NCBI GenBank assembly: GCA_029007785.1 | Contig: JAQXIM010000102.1 | Coordinates: 1-64,000 of the forward strand | Origin: Clostridiales bacterium | Lineage (GTDB): Bacteria; Bacillota; Clostridia; Lachnospirales; Lachnospiraceae | Length of the DNA stretch: 64,000 nt | Direction of reading: 5' to 3' | Part shown: positions 6,812-38,522 of the stretch, in pieces | Layout of the letters: each line of letters starts with the position of its first letter | How positions within the stretch are numbered: position 1 is the stretch's first letter | The notes under the pieces: generated by a model | The model's input: the letters and a program-made list of their open reading frames with translations, nothing else | Told to the model about the DNA's origin: nothing | Databases searched by the model: none | Program-made: the position numbers and the translations under genes

Positions 6812-8218
6812 ATGAGAAAAGAAGAATATATCAGGGTGTTTCAGCTCAAGAAAAAAGTACGGGAAAATCAGATTTTTGAATTTCTTGATCTGACGGTTTA
6901 TGCCAGAGAAACGGCAGGATTAGTGGGCGATGAGAACTCCGGTGTGGATCATCTGTGTCGTATTTTTGCAGGTGAGTCGGGGTATCAGTCAGGACGCCTT
7001 TACATAAAAGGAAAAATCCAATCTGTTTGGCAGCAGAAGGATGCCTATCGGGAAGGGATTTATCGGATTCATCGGAAAAGTCAGCTTCTGGAGACCATGA
7101 ATATTGCTGAAAATCTATGTCTGATTCGTCGATGGAAAGAAGTTCCGTTGTCAGAACGTTGGAAAGTCAAGGATTTCCGGCTTCATTTGCTGGCTTCCGA
7201 GTATCTGGAAGAGTGGGGGATGAAAATCGATACCAGAAAATATCCGGGAGAGTTGACCGCTGCAGAACGGTTGATCATTATGATTATTCGGGCCGAAATG
7301 TGCGGCTGCCGATATTTGATTCTGGATCATGTATGTGCAGCAGCCATTGAAGAAAACGCAGAATTACTTAGTTGGATTCTCCTTTGTCTCAGAGAAAGGG
7401 GGATTGGAGTTCTGACGGCGGAAAGCCGCCCGGAATTGATTGAAAAATGTGTGGATCGGATGATTATTATGAAAGAAGGTCAGCTGGTCGGTGATTATTA
7501 TGGTGACGAGTATCGCCCTCAAACGGTTCGAAAGCTTTTGACAGGAACTATTGTTCAGACCGGGGACAGGAAAAAAAATGCAGACCGGAAAAGATGGAGC
7601 CGAAAATTAAGGCAATGGATGGGAAAGGAACCTTTAACTCTATCTGCCGGAGAAATACTGGGAATTCAGACGGAAAATGGTTGGAAAGCTTTTCTCTCGA
7701 ATTATGATGGCATCCGGGAAGAAGGAGAGAAAACGATGAATCCTATTGCTCTGATGCTGGGAGAGAGCCGACAGTATGGGCTTCATGAGGATTGGAGTCG
7801 ATGTGAAAATCTGGCCCAATACTCGTTCCCTCAAGTTCGTAGTAGGGTTGGAATTCTCCCCATGCGAGTGATGGAGTATTTATATCGGAAGTCCTGGAAG
7901 GGGACAAAAGAAGAGGACAAGGCCTGGGAGACCCTGGAGGGAATGAGCAGCGAGGACAAATTTTGTCTTGCCTTGGAAAGTTTGCGGATTACTCAGCCAA
8001 AAGCCATTGTGATGGTGGAAATCAGCCCGGATATGGATGTGGTACATCTGGAGACGTTTTGCAGGAAAATAAAAGAACTTTCCAGTGAGGGGATCTCTGT
8101 TGTTTTTCTGGATCCGCCCCAGGCGTTGGTACGGAAAATCTGTCAGCGACTGCTGAAAATGAAAGGTACGGAAGTTGAAAGAGAATACAGCAGAGAAGAA
8201 ACTCAGAGATTTTCGTAA
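6812..8218 (+). CDS. Degenerate double-domain ABC ATPase (sugar type), likely inactive
   Basis: A 468-aa protein with the length and two-domain layout of MglA/RbsA-type sugar ABC ATPases, but the catalytic motifs are lost. Domain 1 aligns GLVGDENSGVDHL (36-48) with the Walker A loop: Lys is Val45 and the Ser/Thr pair is Asp46-His47. The signature is reduced to GELTA (146-150), Walker B keeps Asp172 but the catalytic Glu is His173, and the H-loop His is Ser205. Domain 2 has no P-loop, and its Walker B region reads IVMVEISPDMD. Structural landmarks such as MNIAENL and KCVDRMIIMKEGQLVGDY remain, so it is not a random decayed gene. It precedes a binding protein, permease and two-component pair. 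It may be a structural or signalling subunit. The ribosome site is weak. Confidence 0.75.
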   Translation: MRKEEYIRVFQLKKKVRENQIFEFLDLTVYARETAGLVGDENSGVDHLCRIFAGESGYQSGRLYIKGKIQSVWQQKDAYREGIYRIHRKSQLLETMNIAENLCLIRRWKEVPLSERWKVKDFRLHLLASEYLEEWGMKIDTRKYPGELTAAERLIIMIIRAEMCGCRYLILDHVCAAAIEENAELLSWILLCLRERGIGVLTAESRPELIEKCVDRMIIMKEGQLVGDYYGDEYRPQTVRKLLTGTIVQTGDRKKNADRKRWSRKLRQWMGKEPLTLSAGEILGIQTENGWKAFLSNYDGIREEGEKTMNPIALMLGESRQYGLHEDWSRCENLAQYSFPQVRSRVGILPMRVMEYLYRKSWKGTKEEDKAWETLEGMSSEDKFCLALESLRITQPKAIVMVEISPDMDVVHLETFCRKIKELSSEGISVVFLDPPQALVRKICQRLLKMKGTEVEREYSREETQRFS

Positions 8219-8253
8219 GAAGTACAAAACAAATAGAAGAAGGGGATATTGCA

Positions 8254-9285
8254 GTGAAAAAGAAAAGATGGCTGTGGACGCTCCTGGTGTTGTTGATCAT
8301 CCTGCTCTGTCTTGGCAGCCGATACGGAGGCCGGGAAAAGGACGGAGTAACGGTGGGTCTCCTGGCATCTGAGTTTTCCAATGAATTTATGATTGCCATG
8401 CAGAGTGGTTTTGTTGATCGGGCAGAAGAACTGGGCTTTCAAGTCGTTATGAAAATCAGTGGAAGTCATACAGAAACACAACTGAATCAGCTGCAGGATC
8501 TTTTGGTCCAGGACGTGGATGCCCTTGCGATTCGTGTCAATAATGAGACGGGGGGAAGGGAACTTTTGGAAGCAGCCGCAGAGGCCAATGTACCGGTATT
8601 CCTTTACGATACCAAGCCAAGTACCGACAAGTATGTCAGTCTGATTACAACAGATAACTATGAAATTGGCTGTATTGCAGCCAGAGCCATGGGAGAACGG
8701 ATGGAAAAAAAGAAGCAAAAGACCGAAGGAGGAAAGATTGTTGTATTTTCCGGTTCGGAGAGACTGAGTACCCATTCTGACAGAGCAAATGGATTTCTGG
8801 ATACCATAGCAGAGGAATTTCCTGAAATAGAGGTAGCAGAGGTTTGTAAGACTTTTCGTTCTGAGGATACTCTGGATACCGCTCAGGATATACTGAGCAA
8901 GTATGGAGAAGAACTGGATGGAGTCTATCTTGTCACCGACTATATGACAACGGTGGTCCTGGAGGCCATTGAGAGAGCCGGATACGAGGCATGGACCGAA
9001 GAAAAGGAAGGGATGATAATCATTGGTACCGACGGAAATCCGGATATGATTCAGGCACTTCGGGAAGGACGGATTTCGGGAGATGTTTCCCAGAATGCGG
9101 AACGTCTGGGGGCCGATACGGCAGAAATCATTGCCAGATACCTGTCAGGCCGATCGGTGGAAGACGAATATCAGATTCCTACCATGTTGATTACTCCGGA
9201 AAATGTCGATTCACCGAAAGTACGAAGATTTGGACTTTGGGCAGATTCTTATGAAGAAAAATATGGAAACAGGAAGGACAAGTAG
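8254..9285 (+). CDS. Sugar-type periplasmic binding protein (LacI/RbsB fold)
   Basis: A 343-aa exported protein with a basic start and hydrophobic helix at about residues 5-20. There is no clear lipobox (ILLC is a poor match), so it may stay anchored by an uncleaved helix. The mature part follows the RbsB/Peripla_BP_4 pattern: VTVGLLASEFSNEFM, QLQDLLVQDVDALAIR, YVSLITTDNYEIG and IIIGTDGNPDMIQAL. It starts at GTG 8254 with AGAAGGGG upstream. It lies between the degenerate ATPase and the permease, in the usual order for sugar importers. The sugar or other ligand cannot be told from the sequence. Confidence 0.85.
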   Translation: MKKKRWLWTLLVLLIILLCLGSRYGGREKDGVTVGLLASEFSNEFMIAMQSGFVDRAEELGFQVVMKISGSHTETQLNQLQDLLVQDVDALAIRVNNETGGRELLEAAAEANVPVFLYDTKPSTDKYVSLITTDNYEIGCIAARAMGERMEKKKQKTEGGKIVVFSGSERLSTHSDRANGFLDTIAEEFPEIEVAEVCKTFRSEDTLDTAQDILSKYGEELDGVYLVTDYMTTVVLEAIERAGYEAWTEEKEGMIIIGTDGNPDMIQALREGRISGDVSQNAERLGADTAEIIARYLSGRSVEDEYQIPTMLITPENVDSPKVRRFGLWADSYEEKYGNRKDK

Positions 9286-9315
9286 GTCTTCAATCAAAAC
9301 ACAGGAGGACAAATA

Positions 9316-10290
9316 ATGAAGGGGAGATATCCATATTGGCGGAGGCAGTGGGCAAGTCTTATGCCAATATGTCTGGCGATTATCATATTGGCATTATTTA
9401 TAGGATGGAACAGCAGTGCATTTTTCACTCTCAGAAACCTACAGAATTTATTTATGAAAGCAGCATCTGCTCAGATCATGGCCTTTGGCATGACCATGCT
9501 AGCCATTGCGGGCCGCCTGGATTTGTCAGGAGCGGCAGTGATGGGATTATCACTGCTCCTTGGATTGTACGGCAGCTCATTTTTTCAGCTGCCTGCCTGG
9601 TTAACCATTCTGATCATTCTGGGATTGGGTGCTTTGATGGGCGGTTTGACCGGTTTCTTTGTGGCGAAAATCCGCATGCCTTCTTTGTTGACAACCATGG
9701 CCATTCTTCAGATTTTCCGGGGGCTCTTTTTGAGAATTAATGAGGGAACCAGCTATACAGAAATGGGCATCAGTTTTCGGTGGCTGGGGAACGGCTATAT
9801 AGGTGGTCTTGTTCCGGTATCCTTTTTGCTGGTTCTGGTGCTTATGGTGGTTTTCCAGTTTCTTTTGAGAAAAACTGTGTGGGGGTACCATATTCGGGCC
9901 ATTGGAGAGGATGATCAGGTTGCAAAAGCCGCAGGAATTCCCGTGGATCGATATGTATGGAAACTTTTTGTTTATGCCGGTATCCTGTATGGACTGGCGG
10001 CTGTAGTTTTGGCAGGAAGAATCGGTGTGGTGGATTCTTCTCTGGCAAATGGCCAGGAGTGGACGGTTTTGCCTGGAATTGTATTGGGAGGCTGTTCTTT
10101 ATATGGAGGAAAAGGCAGTTTTTTGGGCAGTTATCTTGGAATCCTGCTGTTATGTATGTTGGATAATGGGTGCAATCTGATGAATGTTTCTTCCTATTGG
10201 ACCCAACTGATACAGGGATTGATTATTTTTGCTGCAGTTTTCATGGATACATTGCCGAAATACTGGAAAGAGAGGGGAGCAGAGGAATGA
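9316..10290 (+). CDS. RbsC-like sugar ABC permease
   Basis: A 324-aa membrane protein with about eight to ten hydrophobic segments of the BPD_transp_2 family. It shows the family pattern AGRLDLSGAAVMGLS in the first third and the coupling-helix region AIGEDDQVAKAAGIPVDRY, the site where the ATPase normally docks. The loop is well kept, which suggests that binding to an ATPase-like partner is still selected even though the partner in this cluster is degenerate. AGGAGG lies before the ATG at 9316. The stop shares ATGA with the response regulator gene, so permease and regulator are co-translated. Confidence 0.87.
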   Translation: MKGRYPYWRRQWASLMPICLAIIILALFIGWNSSAFFTLRNLQNLFMKAASAQIMAFGMTMLAIAGRLDLSGAAVMGLSLLLGLYGSSFFQLPAWLTILIILGLGALMGGLTGFFVAKIRMPSLLTTMAILQIFRGLFLRINEGTSYTEMGISFRWLGNGYIGGLVPVSFLLVLVLMVVFQFLLRKTVWGYHIRAIGEDDQVAKAAGIPVDRYVWKLFVYAGILYGLAAVVLAGRIGVVDSSLANGQEWTVLPGIVLGGCSLYGGKGSFLGSYLGILLLCMLDNGCNLMNVSSYWTQLIQGLIIFAAVFMDTLPKYWKERGAEE

Positions 10291-11873
10291 TATCGGTATT
10301 AATTGCAGATGATGAATTGGCAGTATGTCAGCTGGTCAATCATTTGATTGATTGGGACGGGCTGCAGATGGAGCGGCTGGATTATGCGTCCAATGGTTTG
10401 GAAGCCTTGGAAATGATAGAAGAACAGCGGCCGGATATTGTAATCACAGATATCCGTATGCCGGGACTCAGTGGTTTGGAACTGATCAGAAAAACAAGAG
10501 AACAGAATATTCCCGTTTCCTTTATTATTATCAGCGGATATCGTGAATTTGAATTTGCCCGACAGGCGATCCAGTATGGGGTTGAGGATTATTTGCTGAA
10601 ACCCATTCAGGAAAAGGAACTGAACAGTCTGCTCTATCGTCTCGGCAGTCAGATTCAGAAAGAGAGAACTCAGAAATCGGAAGAGATTTCTTCTTCGGAT
10701 TACCAGACAGAGGTAGAAGCATCGGTAAGAAAACGATGGCTGGATCAGATCTTTCGGGGAGAAATTCTCGGTCTTGGAAAAATTGATGATATCAACCGTC
10801 AGTACTCCTATCATTTTTGTCAGGGTGATTTTGTTGTATGGAAACTTCGCATCTGCAGCCAAGAACCTAACCAGGAGAGTTCGGTTCCTTTGCTTCTTCC
10901 TCCACTGATAGAAAGCTTTAAGGAAACCATGAGCTCATTCTTTGTGGAAATGGAAGGAATATTCGATGAGAATCGTGGACATTTTCTGGCAAATGCCCTG
11001 GACAGTGACGGAAGAAGAGAAGAATTGTGGCATCAGGCGGCAGAAGACTGGAGAGAAAAGCAGCAATCCAGGTATGGTGATTTTTTAATTACTTTAGCCG
11101 GCAGCCGGAAGTTTTCCAATCTTGCCGCATTCCGGGATGCCGACCGGGAGACGGAAAATTCCATCTGTAAAGGTCTTTGGCTGGGGATGGATCACTATTT
11201 CCGGGGAATCGGCATATCCTCCGAATCCATCTGGAATTCCTCACTGGAAAATCAATTGGAGAAGGTTTTTCTCTCATTGGATCGGGAGAAGACAAAGAAT
11301 GAAATCCACAGGCTGGTGGATCATCAGGGAAAACAGGATCCGGAGAATTATCTGGCCCGTTATGAGGTACTGAATTTCTGTATCAGTACCCTGGAACGAT
11401 GTGTAAGTCAGATGGCAGGGACAGAAACCGAGGAAAACAGAAATTTTCGTTTTCTCTGCAAAAAATGCTCTTCCTGGAATCAGATTATAAAAATATCGGA
11501 AGCTTACCAGGAGGAATTGCTGGAACAGGCCATTTCTTCCCGAAAAGTTCAGGTGGCTCTGCCGATTAGAACCATTCAGCAATATATGAAAGAGCATTAT
11601 GCGGAAAAGCTGACCCTGGAAGACATGGCCGAACTGGTGCATCTGAATCCGGCTTATGTCAGCGGTTTATTCAAAAAAGAAGTGGGAATGAACTTTTCAG
11701 ACTATCTCACGGATCTTCGGCTGGAGCAGGCAAAGGTGTATTTGCGTCAGGCAGAATGGAATCTTTCGGAGGTGGCTGCCCTGGTGGGTTACAGCGATGT
11801 TCGCTATTTTAGCCGAACATTTACCAGGGTGGTAGGAATTACTCCCAAAGAATATAGGAGGTTGCATCGGTGA
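10287..11873 (+). CDS. Response regulator with AraC-type DNA-binding domain
   Basis: A 528-aa regulator. Residues 1-120 form a receiver domain: acidic pair D8-D9, phosphate-accepting Asp55 in ITDIRMPG, and the lysine of YLLKPIQ. A middle region without known motifs follows, then two AraC helix-turn-helix motifs over about the last 100 residues (LTLEDMAELVHLNPAYVSGLF and the typical VGYSDVRYFSRTFTRVVG). This is the YesN type that pairs with LytS/YesM kinases. The ATG at 10287 is chosen because the receiver domain begins there, overlapping the permease stop. It probably controls its own operon or sugar genes elsewhere. Confidence 0.92.
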   Translation: MISVLIADDELAVCQLVNHLIDWDGLQMERLDYASNGLEALEMIEEQRPDIVITDIRMPGLSGLELIRKTREQNIPVSFIIISGYREFEFARQAIQYGVEDYLLKPIQEKELNSLLYRLGSQIQKERTQKSEEISSSDYQTEVEASVRKRWLDQIFRGEILGLGKIDDINRQYSYHFCQGDFVVWKLRICSQEPNQESSVPLLLPPLIESFKETMSSFFVEMEGIFDENRGHFLANALDSDGRREELWHQAAEDWREKQQSRYGDFLITLAGSRKFSNLAAFRDADRETENSICKGLWLGMDHYFRGIGISSESIWNSSLENQLEKVFLSLDREKTKNEIHRLVDHQGKQDPENYLARYEVLNFCISTLERCVSQMAGTETEENRNFRFLCKKCSSWNQIIKISEAYQEELLEQAISSRKVQVALPIRTIQQYMKEHYAEKLTLEDMAELVHLNPAYVSGLFKKEVGMNFSDYLTDLRLEQAKVYLRQAEWNLSEVAALVGYSDVRYFSRTFTRVVGITPKEYRRLHR

Positions 11874-12730
11874 TGGGATTTCATTGGAAAAACTGGTGGA
11901 ACGGCCAGCGGTTTCTGCGGGCTCTTCGCAGTTTGGGTGTGGATTTCTCTCAGGTGAAAGAAGAGCCGGACTCAGAAACCTGGGTAAAAAAGGTGCTGGA
12001 ACAGACAGCCTGGGCTACAGATTCGGAATATTCTTCCAATTTACTGCGAACTCAGGCTCAGATTAATGCACTTCAAAGTCAGATTAACCCCCATTTTCTG
12101 TACAACACCCTGGAAATGATCCGCGGACAGGCTCTGGATCGAGGTGTTCCGGAAATTGCAGATATGACAGAAATTCTCTCCAATATGTTTCGCTACAATG
12201 TAAGTCAGTCAGAGAAACTGGCCACCTGGGAGCAGGAAATGGAAAATGTCCGGAACTATTTTCAGATACAGCAATATCGTTTTCAGGGACGTTTTATCCT
12301 TCAGGAAATATATGACAGGAACGATCCGGAACTGATGAACTGCAGCATTCCCAGGCTTTCTCTCCAACCCATCGTAGAAAATGCTATTTATCATGGATTG
12401 GAACCGAAAATGGGAAAAGGAACCGTCCAGATCCGTGTCTTTCTGACTGACGAAAGAGTTGTGATCCGTATTTCCGATGACGGTGTGGGAATGTCTTCGG
12501 AGACAGCAGAAAAGCTTCGGTATGCCCTTCGCCAGGGCGGTTTTGAGAGCAGCGAGCATTCCGGCGGGAAACGAATTGCTCTCGTCAACATCAATCAGCG
12601 GCTGAAATTGTACTACGGTGCAGAATATGGCGTTACCTTCAGCAGTGCGGAAGGTGAAGGTACCGTGGTGGAAATGACCGTACCGCACCAGGTGCCAAAG
12701 GGATCAGATCAAATGAATCAAAAGGAATAA
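11870..12730 (+). CDS. LytS/YesM-type histidine kinase without a sensor domain
   Basis: A 286-aa kinase. The phosphoacceptor is His75 in SQINPHFLYNTL; the ATPase domain has the N box QPIVENAIYHGL, G1 box SDDGVGM and a weak G2 box around KRIALVNINQRL. YesM-type kinases normally carry two membrane helices, an extracytoplasmic sensor and HAMP, about 570 aa in all. Here only about 60 soluble residues precede the His-kinase domain, and no membrane segment is seen. Start is GTG 11870 or ATG 11873, both just after AGGAGG at 11856-11861, overlapping the regulator stop. The signal must therefore come from a partner, most simply the transporter-like proteins of the same operon (inference). Confidence 0.88.
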   Translation: MMGFHWKNWWNGQRFLRALRSLGVDFSQVKEEPDSETWVKKVLEQTAWATDSEYSSNLLRTQAQINALQSQINPHFLYNTLEMIRGQALDRGVPEIADMTEILSNMFRYNVSQSEKLATWEQEMENVRNYFQIQQYRFQGRFILQEIYDRNDPELMNCSIPRLSLQPIVENAIYHGLEPKMGKGTVQIRVFLTDERVVIRISDDGVGMSSETAEKLRYALRQGGFESSEHSGGKRIALVNINQRLKLYYGAEYGVTFSSAEGEGTVVEMTVPHQVPKGSDQMNQKE

Positions 12731-12780: not shown

Positions 12781-13212
12781 ATGAATCAGGATACCAAATG
12801 TCTGCTCAGGGAGTGTAATTCCGGATGCAAAATGGCAATTCGTAGTATGGATCAGGTCAAGGAATACGTCCGCGATGAGAAACTGGAAAGGATTCTTGGC
12901 CAGTACAAAAAGAAACATGAGGATCTGGAGGAACGTTCCTCTCAGATGCTTCGGGAAGGAAATACGGAGGAAAAGGAGCCGGGACCCATGGCAGCAGCTG
13001 TTTCCTGGCTCACTGCGGAAGCCAAACTGATGCTTAAGTCTGACTGCTCTCAGATTGCCAAATTGATGATGGATGGCAGCAACATGGGGATTCAGACCAT
13101 TTCTGCCTGTCAGAATAAGCATTCCGAAGCTTCCCGGGAAAGTATGGATCTGGCCAGGGAACTGGTGAAAATCGAAGAATCCTTTATGGGAGAGATGAAG
13201 GCATTTCTCTGA
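12781..13212 (+). CDS. Hypothetical helical protein, possibly ferritin-like (DUF2383-like)
   Basis: A 143-aa predicted soluble, nearly all-helical protein. Acidic and His residues recur in helices (KKHEDLEERS, NKHSEASRESMDLAREL), and the architecture of four amphipathic helices resembles small ferritin-like or DUF2383 proteins, but no complete metal-binding motif can be confirmed. The ribosome site (AGAGG) is modest. It follows the kinase gene after 50 bases and may be read from the same transcript. Function unknown. Confidence 0.65.
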   Translation: MNQDTKCLLRECNSGCKMAIRSMDQVKEYVRDEKLERILGQYKKKHEDLEERSSQMLREGNTEEKEPGPMAAAVSWLTAEAKLMLKSDCSQIAKLMMDGSNMGIQTISACQNKHSEASRESMDLARELVKIEESFMGEMKAFL

Positions 13213-13341: not shown

Positions 13342-13635
13342 GTGAATGTAGTAGAAAGTCTGGAAGAGTTACAGGTAAAGGCAATGCGGGATCCGGATTT
13401 GCGGCAGATGCTGTTGAAAACCAGGGAGGAAAACGATCCCCTGGAAGCATTCTGCAAGAAATGTCAGGAACTTGGGTATGAAATATATCCCATGGAGCTG
13501 ATTGTTGCCGGTGAGGAATTCTACGCCGCTTATCGCCGCAGCACCAACGGAGGCGGGGAGAATTCTCCCAAACTGCTGGGCGAGGATGATTTTTACGAAA
13601 TGTTTATTGCCAATCTGGAAAGCATGGGCAAGTAA
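13342..13635 (+). CDS. Nif11-like small protein
   Basis: A 97-aa soluble protein. The first half, with LQVKAMRDPDLRQMLLKT, a short acidic linker and CKKCQELGYEIYPMEL, follows the Nif11 domain pattern of a helix pair ending in a 'LGY-I---EL' motif. The C-terminal half (RSTNGGGENSPKL, DDFYEMFIANLE) is outside the Nif11 core. Nif11 domains occur as leaders of RiPP precursors and in nitrogen-fixation regions, but no modification enzyme or nif gene is near. It uses GTG with an ideal AAAGGAGG site seven bases upstream and has its own promoter and terminator. Function unknown. Confidence 0.7.
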   Translation: MNVVESLEELQVKAMRDPDLRQMLLKTREENDPLEAFCKKCQELGYEIYPMELIVAGEEFYAAYRRSTNGGGENSPKLLGEDDFYEMFIANLESMGK

Positions 13636-34749: not shown

Positions 34750-35044
34750 AAAAATGGGAGAAAGACCTTTTTTAAAAGTGGGAGAATAATGAAAACAGGA
34801 TTGGAATAAAAAAGTACAAAAAAGTGGAGACACGTTTATAAAATTAAACCGGATCAGGCAGACGGCTTAAAGATAATTAGAGAGAAAACGAAAAAAATAT
34901 TATTTTGAAAAAAAACAAAAAAGAAAATTGACGGAATTTGTAAAGTAATATGCCAAATTACAATAAAGTAACACATAATAAATGATAAAAATACTTGCGA
35001 AAACCTTCCATTTTGAGTAAATTATATTAATGGGAGGAGAAGCA
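34750..35044. other. A/T-rich spacer before the AraC regulator
   Basis: No ORF of note and no remnant of spoVAD was seen. A possible promoter, TTGCGA (34995-35000) and TAAATT (35018-35023) at 17-bp spacing, lies directly before the ribosome site. Confidence 0.4.
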
Positions 35045-37333
35045 ATGGAGAAGAAAAAGAAGAAAAGAAGTTTTTTGTCTTTTTTGCGTTTTAATAGTAT
35101 TTATCTAAAAACCCTGCTGATTCTATCCGCATTGATTTTTGTTGTTGGAATCACTTTTTTTGGGATCATGGGGCATTATTATCAGCAGCAATATGTGGAG
35201 GAGTATTTTTCCGGTTGTGGAGTGAGCCTGTCTTCCATAAGCAATAGTTTTGATACTTTTTGCAGAGAATCGGATCTGCGGTTTCAGGATTTATTCAAGC
35301 AGGAAGAATGCAACGAGGTCATCATCAGGGGCGAAACCTACCAGAGCGAAAATGCTTTCCGTGTGGTTCGTGAATTAGGCGAAATCGCAGAGGGGGAAAA
35401 GTGGATTAGTCAGATCAACATCTATGTAGCAGCGAATCATAGTGTCCTTTCATCGGACAAGTCCATAACGGATGCCAGTGAATGGATTGCTTCTGATCCG
35501 AGCAGTTCGTGGGAATCAGATATTCAAAATATGGGAAAAAAGGGGAAACTTCTTTATCGTAATGGAAATCTGTATTGGGTCCGTACACTTCCGGAGAAAA
35601 AGAATCTGTCCATTTTTTGGGTGCGGTTTGATAAGGAAGCCTTGATGAATGATCTGGCGAATGACTGGAAAGGTCATCCGGTGACTCTTTATCTGAACGG
35701 AGAAGTCCTTTTATCTCAATTGGAGAATCCTCAGCCGGAAAATGATTTGATGACCACAGATAAACATTCGCTGAATGAAGAAACCATACTATATTATAGG
35801 CCCGATGGCGGATATTATCTGAAATACAGTTCCGGTTACACGAACCTTGATTACATTATTAGTGTAGACAAGGGGGAAGTGGGAATGGTGACGAAGCAGA
35901 TGCTTCTTTTGCTGGCTCCCATTCTCCTTGTTATGATTTTATTGGTGGGAGTGGTGGCTTTTCTGCTGGTTCGTACTGTCTATCGTCCCATACATGGAAT
36001 TCTTCGGCAGCTCATGGCAGGACGAGATCTGGAAGAACTGTCGGAAGAGAAGACACATATCAATACAGAATTGGATTTAATGGCATACCTGAAAGAAGAA
36101 AATGAAAAGGGAAAGAACTCTCTTCATGAAATGCTGAGAGAAGTCAGCAGTGCTGTGACGGAGCAGATTTTTACGGAAATGCTCCATCAGGAAAGCTCAG
36201 ATATGGAGCGTAATCTGGATCTGCTTCAGCAGATCGATTCCCCTTTTCTGAAAGCAGATAAATTTCAGGTGGATATTGTTTATTTGATTTCCGGATCGAA
36301 GAATAACAATGGACTGGAATTGGAAGATATTCTTGTAGGAGAAGGAATTCGCCGCCGTGTTATTTCATTTTGGCGGAAGAAAAATGTGTGCGTCTGTGCC
36401 AAAGAAGACAAACAAAACCAGGAAACCTTTGTTTTGGGCTTTTCCGATCAGGTTTCTTCCGGCCAGATCAAGCAGTGGCATGATGAAATAGATCAGATGC
36501 TGGAGGAGGAAAGCAAAGATCTGAATGGCCGTTTGAAGTTTGGAAGCAGCAGACTTCGTACGGATCTGGACCAATTAAAATCGGCTTATGATGAAGCCGA
36601 AAAGATGCTTCGGGAACGCATGTATTATCAGATGAGGGGAGAAGACTTTTCTGAGATTTCCTTGATGGTGGAAACCCAGATGGAAAAGATTCTGAATCAG
36701 ATTTGTACCGATAAAGAGGAAGGAATGGAAGCCTACGGGCACCTTCTGGAGATGGTGGAAGATCACAAAGACATTGCCGTTTCCTGTTATCTGAAAATCA
36801 TCGATCGGTATCTGGAAAAAATGATTCGTATGTGTATTGAGTGTCCGGAATCTCTTCGAAGAAAACGTCATATTCTGGAAGCCAATACCAGTTCTCTTCA
36901 GGATTATGATGTACGGAGACAGCAGATTCGAGATTTTGGAGAAGAGGCAGCCGAACTGATTCACAAAGCAGCAGGAAAGAACCAATATCTTTATGTAGAA
37001 TCAGCAAAGAAGTACATAGAAGATCATTACGATGATGGCAATCTGTCTCTTCAGTTGGTCAGCGAAAGCTGTGGTGTCAGCTCCAGTTATCTTTCGCGTC
37101 TGTTTGCAAATTATGCATCTATGGGATTTCTCGATTATCTGAATCAATTCCGTTCCCATCAGGCTGCTCTGCTTCTGGAAAATACAGATTATACAGTGGC
37201 AGATATCGGATTTAAGACCGGATTTACCACACCTCAGAATTTTTCACGTGTTTTTCGCCGTTGTATGGGGGAAACGCCCGGACAGTATCGATTGAGAAAA
37301 CGGGAAGGGAAAAATGAAGAACCCCAGGAATAG
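35045..37333 (+). CDS. Membrane-bound AraC family regulator with extracytoplasmic sensor
   Basis: A 762-aa protein: a basic start, membrane helix at about 20-42, an extracytoplasmic region of about 230 residues that resembles Cache-type sensors in layout, a second helix near 280-305 (LLLLAPILLVMILLVGVVAFLL), a HAMP-like join, a cytoplasmic middle region, and two AraC helix-turn-helix motifs at the C-terminus (LSLQLVSESCGVSSSYLSRLF; VADIGFKTGFTTPQNFSRVF). It senses and binds DNA in one chain, without a kinase. GGGAGGAG lies five bases before ATG 35045. The next gene, which starts 49 bases on, encodes a TRAP-type binding lipoprotein, a plausible ligand-presenting partner. Confidence 0.87.
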   Translation: MEKKKKKRSFLSFLRFNSIYLKTLLILSALIFVVGITFFGIMGHYYQQQYVEEYFSGCGVSLSSISNSFDTFCRESDLRFQDLFKQEECNEVIIRGETYQSENAFRVVRELGEIAEGEKWISQINIYVAANHSVLSSDKSITDASEWIASDPSSSWESDIQNMGKKGKLLYRNGNLYWVRTLPEKKNLSIFWVRFDKEALMNDLANDWKGHPVTLYLNGEVLLSQLENPQPENDLMTTDKHSLNEETILYYRPDGGYYLKYSSGYTNLDYIISVDKGEVGMVTKQMLLLLAPILLVMILLVGVVAFLLVRTVYRPIHGILRQLMAGRDLEELSEEKTHINTELDLMAYLKEENEKGKNSLHEMLREVSSAVTEQIFTEMLHQESSDMERNLDLLQQIDSPFLKADKFQVDIVYLISGSKNNNGLELEDILVGEGIRRRVISFWRKKNVCVCAKEDKQNQETFVLGFSDQVSSGQIKQWHDEIDQMLEEESKDLNGRLKFGSSRLRTDLDQLKSAYDEAEKMLRERMYYQMRGEDFSEISLMVETQMEKILNQICTDKEEGMEAYGHLLEMVEDHKDIAVSCYLKIIDRYLEKMIRMCIECPESLRRKRHILEANTSSLQDYDVRRQQIRDFGEEAAELIHKAAGKNQYLYVESAKKYIEDHYDDGNLSLQLVSESCGVSSSYLSRLFANYASMGFLDYLNQFRSHQAALLLENTDYTVADIGFKTGFTTPQNFSRVFRRCMGETPGQYRLRKREGKNEEPQE

Positions 37334-37382
37334 CCTGACAGGATTCCTGGAAATGGGATGTGCGATAAAAGGAGAAGATAAA

Positions 37383-38522
37383 ATGAGGAGAATTGGATCA
37401 GTATGGGGGGATTTCCAAAGGAAGAGGAGTCCGGAGAGAAAAGGGGGATGCAGAGAAAACCCGCATGGAAAGGGAAGGCTCTGTGCAGTGTTTCTGGTAA
37501 TTTGTTCTCTTCTTTCTGGCATCGTGGGGTGTTCCGGTCAGACGACCTTTTCTGTATATGAACCGAAAGAAACGGAAGAGATTCAGGAGGAATCTATTAC
37601 CATTCTCTGCTCTCTGCCGGATCTGGAAGGAGGTCTTTGTGATCTGACTGCCCGGAAAATGAAGGAAGTGCTGGAAGAGGTTTCTCATGGTAAGATGAAA
37701 ATGAGTATCTATTCCAATAATGCGCTGGGAACAATTCAGGGTGGAGAACGTTCCCTGAAAGAGGGAACGGTGGAGCTTCGGATTTCCGGAACCGGCAGCA
37801 CTGTTTCCCGGATTCTTTGCTGGATGCCTTCGATTGTTGACATGACTCCGGAAGAGATGGATGATAGAATGGAAGAGGGCCAGCCCTGGAGACAGATGCT
37901 GAATGAAGAAATGGAAAAAGAATCCATTATTGTTTTGGGAGTCTGCAAACCGCGGTATCGGGTATTTACCAGTAAAACCAGGGTTGATTCGATCGATGAT
38001 TTCGAAGGACTGCATATGCGTCTGCTGGGATCCGGTGTGGGATCCGTTTACTGGGAAAATCTGGGAACGGAAATTATAACCTGTGATATTCAGGATTTAT
38101 ATCTTTATCTTCAGCAGAATGTTCTTGACAGTCAGGAAAATACTCTCGAAAATATTGTAGGTTACCGTTTATATGAACAACAGCAGTATGTCGTCGATAC
38201 CAATCACACGTTTGATCTTGATTTTCTTATGATCAATCGTGATTTCTATCAGGGCTTGAGTGAAGAGGAGAGAGGCTGGATTGATGAGGCAGCGGCAGCA
38301 GCTTTGGAATATAACAGAGAGGAAGCCGATGAATTATATGAAGAGCAGCGGCAGGAGCTGTTGGCTTCCGGTTGTGAAGAAATCATTCTGTCATCCTCAG
38401 AGAAACAGGCTTTGCGAGAAAAACAAAAGAATATTGTTTTGCAGGAATTAGGAAAAAGCTTCGGGGTAAAGGCGGTAAATGAAATCCTCCGGGAGTTGAA
38501 TATGGAGGTTCCCGTGGAATAA
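37383..38522 (+). CDS. TRAP-type (DctP family) substrate-binding lipoprotein, orphan
   Basis: A 379-aa exported protein. A long basic N-region of about 30 residues, then a hydrophobic stretch ending SGIVGC, a good lipobox. The mature part follows DctP: ITILCSLPDLEGG, NNALGTIQGGERSLKEGTVEL, RVDSIDDFEGLHMRLLG and a late YLYLQQNVLDSQENTLENI, the family's ligand-binding motif. No DctQ or DctM permease gene is near. The ATG at 37383 has GGAG eight bases upstream; an earlier ATG at 37314 overlaps the regulator gene. It probably feeds the membrane AraC regulator upstream or serves a distant transporter. Confidence 0.85.
   Translation: MRRIGSVWGDFQRKRSPERKGGCRENPHGKGRLCAVFLVICSLLSGIVGCSGQTTFSVYEPKETEEIQEESITILCSLPDLEGGLCDLTARKMKEVLEEVSHGKMKMSIYSNNALGTIQGGERSLKEGTVELRISGTGSTVSRILCWMPSIVDMTPEEMDDRMEEGQPWRQMLNEEMEKESIIVLGVCKPRYRVFTSKTRVDSIDDFEGLHMRLLGSGVGSVYWENLGTEIITCDIQDLYLYLQQNVLDSQENTLENIVGYRLYEQQQYVVDTNHTFDLDFLMINRDFYQGLSEEERGWIDEAAAAALEYNREEADELYEEQRQELLASGCEEIILSSSEKQALREKQKNIVLQELGKSFGVKAVNEILRELNMEVPVE

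Follow-up and report, generated by a model that had tools for sequence, protein, structure and literature searches.

Five tightly packed genes in a Lachnospiraceae genome probably encode a non-pumping ATP-binding cassette (ABC) importer that serves as a sugar receptor; we place the probability of this reading at about 0.58 and consider it the most likely of several. The genes occupy positions 6812-12730, all on the + strand, of a 64,000-nucleotide stretch of contig JAQXIM010000102.1 (assembly GCA_029007785.1; the whole stretch is called the window), and encode a degenerate RbsA-like ATPase (the pseudo-ATPase), a sugar-binding protein, a permease, a response regulator and a sensorless LytS-type histidine kinase (HK). 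The combination of a response regulator, a short LytS-type kinase and an HK-linked pseudo-RbsA was well supported as a conserved module. The gene set is more than a chance arrangement, because the same order is found twice in another genus and 82 further loci also have the pair of kinase and pseudo-ATPase. The features of the operon are as follows.

6812..8218, +: double nucleotide-binding domain (NBD) pseudo-ATPase of predicted RbsA/MglA-type fold, catalytic site lost; 468 aa; Pfam ABC_tran E 3.6e-9
8254..9285, +: RbsB-type sugar-binding protein with N-terminal membrane anchor; 343 aa, GTG start; Peripla_BP_4 E 1.5e-51
9316..10290, +: RbsC-type permease; 324 aa; BPD_transp_2 E 2e-32
9871..9948, +: cytoplasmic coupling region of the permease, residues 186-211, retained (alignment of 15 permeases)
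10287..11873, +: AraC-type response regulator, receiver plus HTH_18; 528 aa; Response_reg E 4.1e-25, HTH_18 1.5e-21
11870..12730, +: LytS/YesM-type histidine kinase without transmembrane (TM) helix or sensor domain, catalytic motifs intact; 286 aa; His_kinase E 1.3e-25, HATPase_c 3.8e-12
11870..11932, +: Trp-rich, basic N-terminal helix of the kinase, common to loci L163 and L167; helix 2-21 in the AlphaFold2 (AF2) model

The first three genes were separated by 35 and 30 bp and the others joined by two stop/start overlaps, with the regulator start overlapping the permease stop as ATGA. A preliminary description of this DNA had named the same packed genes and families, and both the coordinates and the Pfam matches agreed with it.

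Linkage and spread of the kinase and the pseudo-ATPase

With the pseudo-ATPase as query, no close relatives were found in 97 other genomes (top match 2.5e-23, all RbsA-like), and a scan of genome contigs with this query gave no close relative. This appearance of a lone degenerate gene was overturned once the kinase served as query, whose best matches in relatives were short kinases with a degenerate RbsA-like gene immediately 3'. When 299 genomes of the family were searched with a profile, 57 of them contained kinase matches at E <= 1e-75. Loci with short kinases and a set of long kinases (450 aa or more) were collected, and one annotation procedure was applied to all. The results showed that in 78 of the 82 short-kinase loci other than that of the window the kinase gene is immediately followed, in the same orientation, by a related ABC gene (76/80 after excluding L185 and L186, which had been picked for their pseudo-ATPase). 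The two genes overlap or abut in 43 of these 78 pairs and are at most 25 bp apart in 69. The remaining four loci carry the ABC gene elsewhere: 3.2 kb downstream of the kinase in L084, at the head of the operon, as in the window, in L163 and L167, and ahead of the regulator, encoding a half protein of 251 aa, in L073. An adjoining ABC gene was found for only one of 26 sensor-bearing kinases of at least 450 aa, that of L159, which is 565 aa long yet falls inside the short clade on the kinase tree. Conversely, each of the 45 top-scoring pseudo-ATPase matches (at least 320 bits) had such a kinase at its locus, broken in one case; profile seeds made up 20 of the 45, and only five candidates were scored per genome. 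In L185 (G229:C21), a kinase match with four in-frame stops, either broken or carrying sequencing errors, lies beside a full-length pseudo-ATPase. Thus the gene pair on which the preliminary description had built its proposal is a conserved one.

The surroundings of the module varied. An intact sugar ABC transporter ATPase lay beside it in 62/82 loci and a permease was present in the great majority, while 12 loci, the window included, combined the pseudo-ATPase with a binding protein and/or permease and had no pump ATPase in the examined stretch. The earlier statement that the parts that should pump lack the motor is thus correct for the window type and does not extend to those 62 loci. L072 (11367-12293) and L155 each encode a permease directly after the pseudo-ATPase and another after an intact ATPase, as if the receptor owned a separate permease.

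On the kinase tree, which omits 12 of 109 kinases (L185 and 11 whose H-box was missed by the pattern, 3 of them short), the window kinase clustered (SH-aLRT 97) with those of L163 and L167, two loci of genome G234, which belongs to a different genus. The gene order of the window (pseudo-ATPase, binding protein, permease, regulator, soluble kinase) is found again in both, with identities in that order of 33, 45, 47, 37 and 62% for L163 and 30, 36, 35, 36 and 49% for L167. The pseudo-ATPase frame of L167 (1608-2372) has 254 aa and amounts to a single NBD, similar in size to the half protein of L073. In the window's own genus, L077, L083, L084, L090 and L091 have a binding protein, permease, regulator, two-TM kinase and pseudo-ATPase, with no pump ATPase in the examined stretch. 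Beside both G234 operons are similar alpha/beta-hydrolase genes with low-complexity N-terminal stretches (L163:3-1718 and L167:7128-8831), which are candidate regulator targets. The neighbours of L167 also include an FGGY kinase and a fucose-isomerase-like gene. No orthologues of the window's esterase, DUF1287 and FGGY kinase genes adjoin L163 or L167, the FGGY match in L167 having only 25% identity, and shared neighbours were dropped as a clue to the ligand.

In a class-wide sample, a kinase match at E <= 1e-80 was found in 20 of 291 genomes. Sixteen of the 20 kinases were shorter than 450 aa; in 13 of these cases the next gene downstream encodes a motif-less ABC protein, in L233 and L235 a partly degenerate ABC gene immediately precedes the regulator gene, and in L232 one lies on the opposite strand. 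None of the four kinases of the longer type had an adjacent ABC gene, and in L234 (485-aa kinase) a near-intact one adjoins the regulator. Among 80 named loci, a pseudo-ATPase accompanied all nine short kinases above 350 bits and none of five lower-scoring ones, while 2 of 66 long kinases adjoined an ABC gene, of a different kind by size and score. Named carriers include Herbinix (L240, Walker A pattern still present), Tepidanaerobacter, Muricomes intestini DSM 29489 and a Treponema metagenome-assembled genome (MAG). The module is therefore spread over Clostridia, plus one copy in the Treponema MAG.

Catalytic loss, selection and retained residues in the pseudo-ATPase

Compared with 72 intact homologues, the window pseudo-ATPase has lost the Walker A Lys (to Val) and Ser (to Asp), the Q-loop Gln (to Arg), the catalytic Glu (to His) and the H-loop His (to Ser). 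In its second domain (NBD2), the signature Gly-Gly, which completes the active site, has become Ser-Glu and the Walker A Arg has become Trp. Of the tabulated sites, all but the Walker B Asp and an NBD2 Glu are lost, which bears out the preliminary description of a pseudo-ATPase; judging from these residues, the protein would not be expected to hydrolyse ATP. The window encodes a binding protein, a permease and a double-NBD ATPase of Rbs families together, but because the hydrolysing site is absent (Val, His, Ser-Glu) we did not file the set as a CUT2/Rbs-type importer. NCBIfam models agreed that the three transporter parts are Rbs/Mgl-like, yet none came near any equivalog cutoff (binding protein against the RbsB model: E 1.8e-27, under cutoff). 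The double-NBD fold is predicted to be retained: the AF2 model (28 aligned sequences) had pLDDT 83.6 and pTM 0.78 and resembled the fused double-NBD importer subunits DppD/OppD, with a TM-score of up to 0.76. In a search of the PDB for a solved RbsABC-type complex, the permease matched no chain; the pump ATPase matched 154 sequences, and the best 60 of the 154 were other ABC proteins.

The same loss characterizes the family. Alignment of 81 HK-linked ABC proteins (window, L084 and L159 included; L073, L163 and L167 excluded) showed that the Walker A Lys, catalytic Glu and signature Gly-Gly are all kept in one (L170), versus 72/72 neighbouring pump ATPases. The Walker A Lys was present in 40/81 and the Walker B Asp in 37/81, and Gly occupied the two signature positions in 4 and 5 of 81. 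On the tree, the HK-linked proteins lay on one side of a branch with SH-aLRT 99, a grouping that long-branch attraction could possibly have produced; the window branch is among the longest and its exact place is for that reason unsure. In the window, then, the kinase lies inside the short clade and the ABC protein, its catalytic residues lost, inside the pseudo-ATPase group.

In four close pseudo-ATPase pairs measurable at synonymous sites, dN/dS was 0.10-0.20, indicating that the gene is under purifying selection and is not decaying. In several pairs its rate of change was close to that of the kinase and regulator and exceeded that of the pump ATPase. The heavy motif loss and fast divergence could be explained if a sugar transporter had decayed and its remains lay next to an ordinary two-component system, but this is most improbable given the low dN/dS, open frames of about 480 aa across wide taxonomic distance, near-invariant family-specific residues, a confident AF2 fold and the repeated five-gene order.

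Two kinds of residue suggested what the protein is kept for. Asn101 was kept in 69/81 HK-linked proteins (71/72 pumps) and Asn333 in 80/81 (72/72 pumps). Both are located in the segment after the Q-loop, which we take to lie near the coupling helix in canonical importers, and their retention may reflect kept permease docking. Glu5 (79/81) and Arg8 (71/81), which are unconserved in pumps, may form a new contact, perhaps with the kinase. On the permease side, the window protein retains the K-T..G....A.G.....A...G coupling region of pump homologues, in line with the intact coupling loop reported in the preliminary description; residues 186-211 presumably form the so-called coupling helix of ABC importers.

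We then compared pairwise distances by partial correlation over 58 loci having all five parts. The pseudo-ATPase correlated with the regulator at 0.42, the kinase at 0.32 and both the permease and the pump ATPase at 0.23, and the kinase with the permease at 0.00 and the pump at 0.02. Because the pseudo-ATPase gene often sits between two blocks, the loci were split by gene position; in the 18 loci whose pump lies on the regulator side, the pseudo-ATPase-permease value was 0.15 (-0.01 to 0.30) and the kinase-permease value 0.12 (-0.08 to 0.29). The apparent bridge to the permease thus failed the position control, and the signal was retained solely for the link to kinase and regulator. This supported the view that the pseudo-ATPase belongs to the signalling block.

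Such distances also suit an alternative in which the pseudo-ATPase is a stand-alone cytosolic regulator of the kinase, with a remodelled NBD site that takes up a nucleotide or sugar-phosphate, and the permease genes are mere neighbours. The Glu5 and Arg8 positions without pump counterpart, the Walker residues persisting in about half of the family, and eight short-kinase loci with neither permease nor pump ATPase in the examined stretch (several cut by a contig end) are consistent with it. We consider it unlikely, since the nucleotide-site residues vary widely and are almost all gone in the window, while the permease accompanies most loci and the two Asn beside the presumed coupling-helix groove are kept.

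Kinase anchoring and the proposed receptor

The window kinase starts at GTG 11870 or ATG 11873, and its stop-to-stop frame is just 290 aa, so it hides no upstream membrane part; its H-, N- and G-boxes are intact. The earlier claim that it has neither sensor nor membrane part was thus upheld for the window. In the family, this picture held in part. TM helices were counted with a simple hydropathy window, not a trained predictor, in 82 short kinases (window in, broken L185 out): 63 had two, ten had one and nine had none. The hairpin's extracellular loop had a median of 9 residues (range 1-26, n=63) versus 261 in sensor-bearing long relatives (n=24), and "sensorless" therefore holds generally, whereas absence from the membrane does not. 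The short kinase is usually anchored by a sensor-free two-helix hairpin, and fully soluble in a minority only, which half bears out the membrane-bound kinase that the preliminary description had named as a refutation. Simple patterns found the H-box in 80 of the 82, the N-box in 79, G1 in 80 and G2 in 81.

These loops bear on the possibility that the binding protein acts directly on the kinase, as in three-component systems of binding protein and LytS-type kinase, with the pseudo-ATPase incidental. Such systems are known in Clostridia (CuaDSR, XylFII-LytS; PMC10384115, accessible part). The known ones use an extracellular kinase domain, as far as that part of the source goes, and the short hairpin loops here make this explanation improbable; for the window it is further disfavoured, because a cytosolic kinase without membrane part cannot touch an extracellular protein.

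Kinases without TM helix were found in the window, L163, L167, L080, L089, L092, L179 and L184. A contig end truncates L080, leaving seven interpretable cases, six of which (exception L092) had a permease and no pump ATPase at the locus, versus 6 of 66 loci with TM kinases. This fits a kinase brought to the membrane by a complex of pseudo-ATPase and permease. The ninth case, L069 at the end of contig G058:C49, was omitted from the TM argument as its kinase frame runs off the contig; it continues into sequence that in our judgement resembles an HflX-type GTPase, probably an assembly artefact. In the window, L163 and L167, the N-terminal helix of the kinase had a hydrophobic moment of 0.59-0.72 and is a candidate docking or membrane-surface helix, although in the AF2 model (whole-kinase pLDDT 81.4) this block had low confidence, about 64-74.

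Taken as a sugar receptor, the system might work as follows. The membrane-anchored binding protein, whose N-terminus is hydrophobic as judged from sequence, would load ligand onto a dimer of the RbsC-type permease. The pseudo-ATPase would sit at the permease's cytoplasmic coupling loops, in RbsA's usual place, and relay ligand-driven permease movement to the dimeric sensorless kinase, which would then phosphorylate the AraC-type regulator. Where the module has its common form, the kinase would be held in place by its two-helix hairpin in the membrane, and an adjacent working pump may supply the permease; in the window form, where the kinase is soluble and a separate permease and binding protein are encoded, bringing the kinase to the membrane would be a further task of the pseudo-ATPase. 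Permease docking, kinase contact, direction and sign of the signal and sugar as the ligand are what we infer from the genes and residues above.

Several observations weigh against this receptor. In the 62 loci where a working pump ATPase adjoins the module, control of that pump is an equally compatible role. Near-intact ATPases stand at a similar position in L170 and L234, so loss of catalysis is not essential for every member. The distance link between pseudo-ATPase and permease is weak and not distinguishable from gene position, the TM-less kinases represent just about three origins on the kinase tree, and no convincing fusion of kinase and pseudo-ATPase genes was found among the surveyed loci. 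As fusion candidates, we rejected the 616-aa kinase frame of L188, which matched both profiles with a weak, unconvincing ABC score, and an 805-aa frame in G641, really an ordinary 332-aa kinase beside a separate ABC gene. Finally, intact RbsA-type ATPases are encoded elsewhere in the window's genome (2.35 Mb assembly, 149 contigs), on contigs 64 and 80, and could in principle energise the window permease.

The pump role can be put more specifically: the pseudo-ATPase would compete with working RbsA for the adjacent pump's permease, so that the kinase reads occupancy or uptake is throttled. Besides the frequent adjoining ATPase, a precedent exists in BceS, which reads the state of BceAB and throttles its ATPase (PMC10314905, accessible part). 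The window and 11 other loci, with a permease and no pump ATPase in the examined stretch, would need an ATPase from elsewhere, and we hold this explanation to be doubtful, a little more so than that of a stand-alone regulator. The absence of a pump ATPase from the window form favours the receptor.

In L170 (G198:C26), L234 (G536:C1) and L159 (G198:C36), kinases of 392, 485 and 565 aa are found, and the ATPases beside the kinase or regulator are less degraded or near-intact. These loci are possible intermediates from a pump-linked sensor kinase to the sensorless, pseudo-ATPase state.

Elsewhere in the window, two small open reading frames 3' of the operon (12781-13212 and 13342-13635) had no Pfam match. 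At 35030-38522, the gene of a 767-aa AraC-type regulator with C-terminal helix-turn-helix overlaps that of a DctP-type binding protein, possibly another sensor pair.

Significance and comparison with known systems

Our results suggest that an importer has been turned into a sugar receptor in many gut and anaerobic bacteria. If this is true, it would be a new bacterial receptor class, importer-like pseudo-ATPases would count as signalling parts, and many gut Clostridia genes now annotated as carbohydrate ABC parts would have to be re-annotated. With the module it can be cleanly tested whether ligand occupancy is signalled by an ABC importer without hydrolysis, which in Bce-type systems is not easily separated from flux, and the apparent intermediates L170, L234 and L159 offer a route from working pump to receptor. 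We see roughly even odds that these are multi-subunit ABC transceptors, in which a full importer architecture is kept, the motor has turned into an adaptor directly switching a sensorless kinase and, in the window type, the pseudo-ATPase is the sole membrane tether.

The titles and abstract openings found in the literature described no such kinase/pseudo-ATPase pair, most subscription papers and all preprints lying outside the search; a review forms part of the background (PMC7828314, accessible part). The new signalling unit postulated in the preliminary description is thus real and apparently of an undescribed kind, but the window form is a minority version of it.

The module resembles BceAB-BceRS of Firmicutes in having a kinase without extracellular sensor that is gene-linked to the ABC system it reads. 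According to the accessible part of PMC10314905, however, BceAB is a transporter that hydrolyses ATP, a HAMP domain is present in BceS, and in BceAB-S a functional transporter is required, its cycling being proposed as the signal. Here a dead ATPase of RbsA type is linked to a LytS/YesM-type kinase that sometimes lacks TM helices. A BceB-type permease with large extracellular domain is absent, the 324-aa window permease being of BPD_transp_2/RbsC type. Among intramembrane-sensing kinases, defined by two TM helices and a short loop, the 63 two-helix kinases fit, while the window kinase has no TM helix at all.

XylFII-LytS and CuaDSR share with the module a sugar-binding protein, a sensor kinase, a regulator and their occurrence in Clostridia. 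In CuaDSR the binding protein binds the extracellular domain of the kinase (PMC10384115, accessible part); no such domain exists here, and a permease and pseudo-ATPase are added. Neither the BceAB-S nor the CuaDSR scheme fits the window module. RbsABC and MglABC (CUT2) have the same three protein families and fold as the window set, which differs in having no working ATPase and in its link to a kinase and regulator. Closest in principle are transceptors and transporter-fused kinases, in which, as far as the accessible parts of the sources show, a transporter fold is reused as a kinase receptor (S-component/5TMR, PMC11109136; SLC5/STAC, PMC9100948). Those are single membrane proteins or fusions, whereas the window module would use a multi-subunit ABC importer with a pseudo-ATPase as adaptor.

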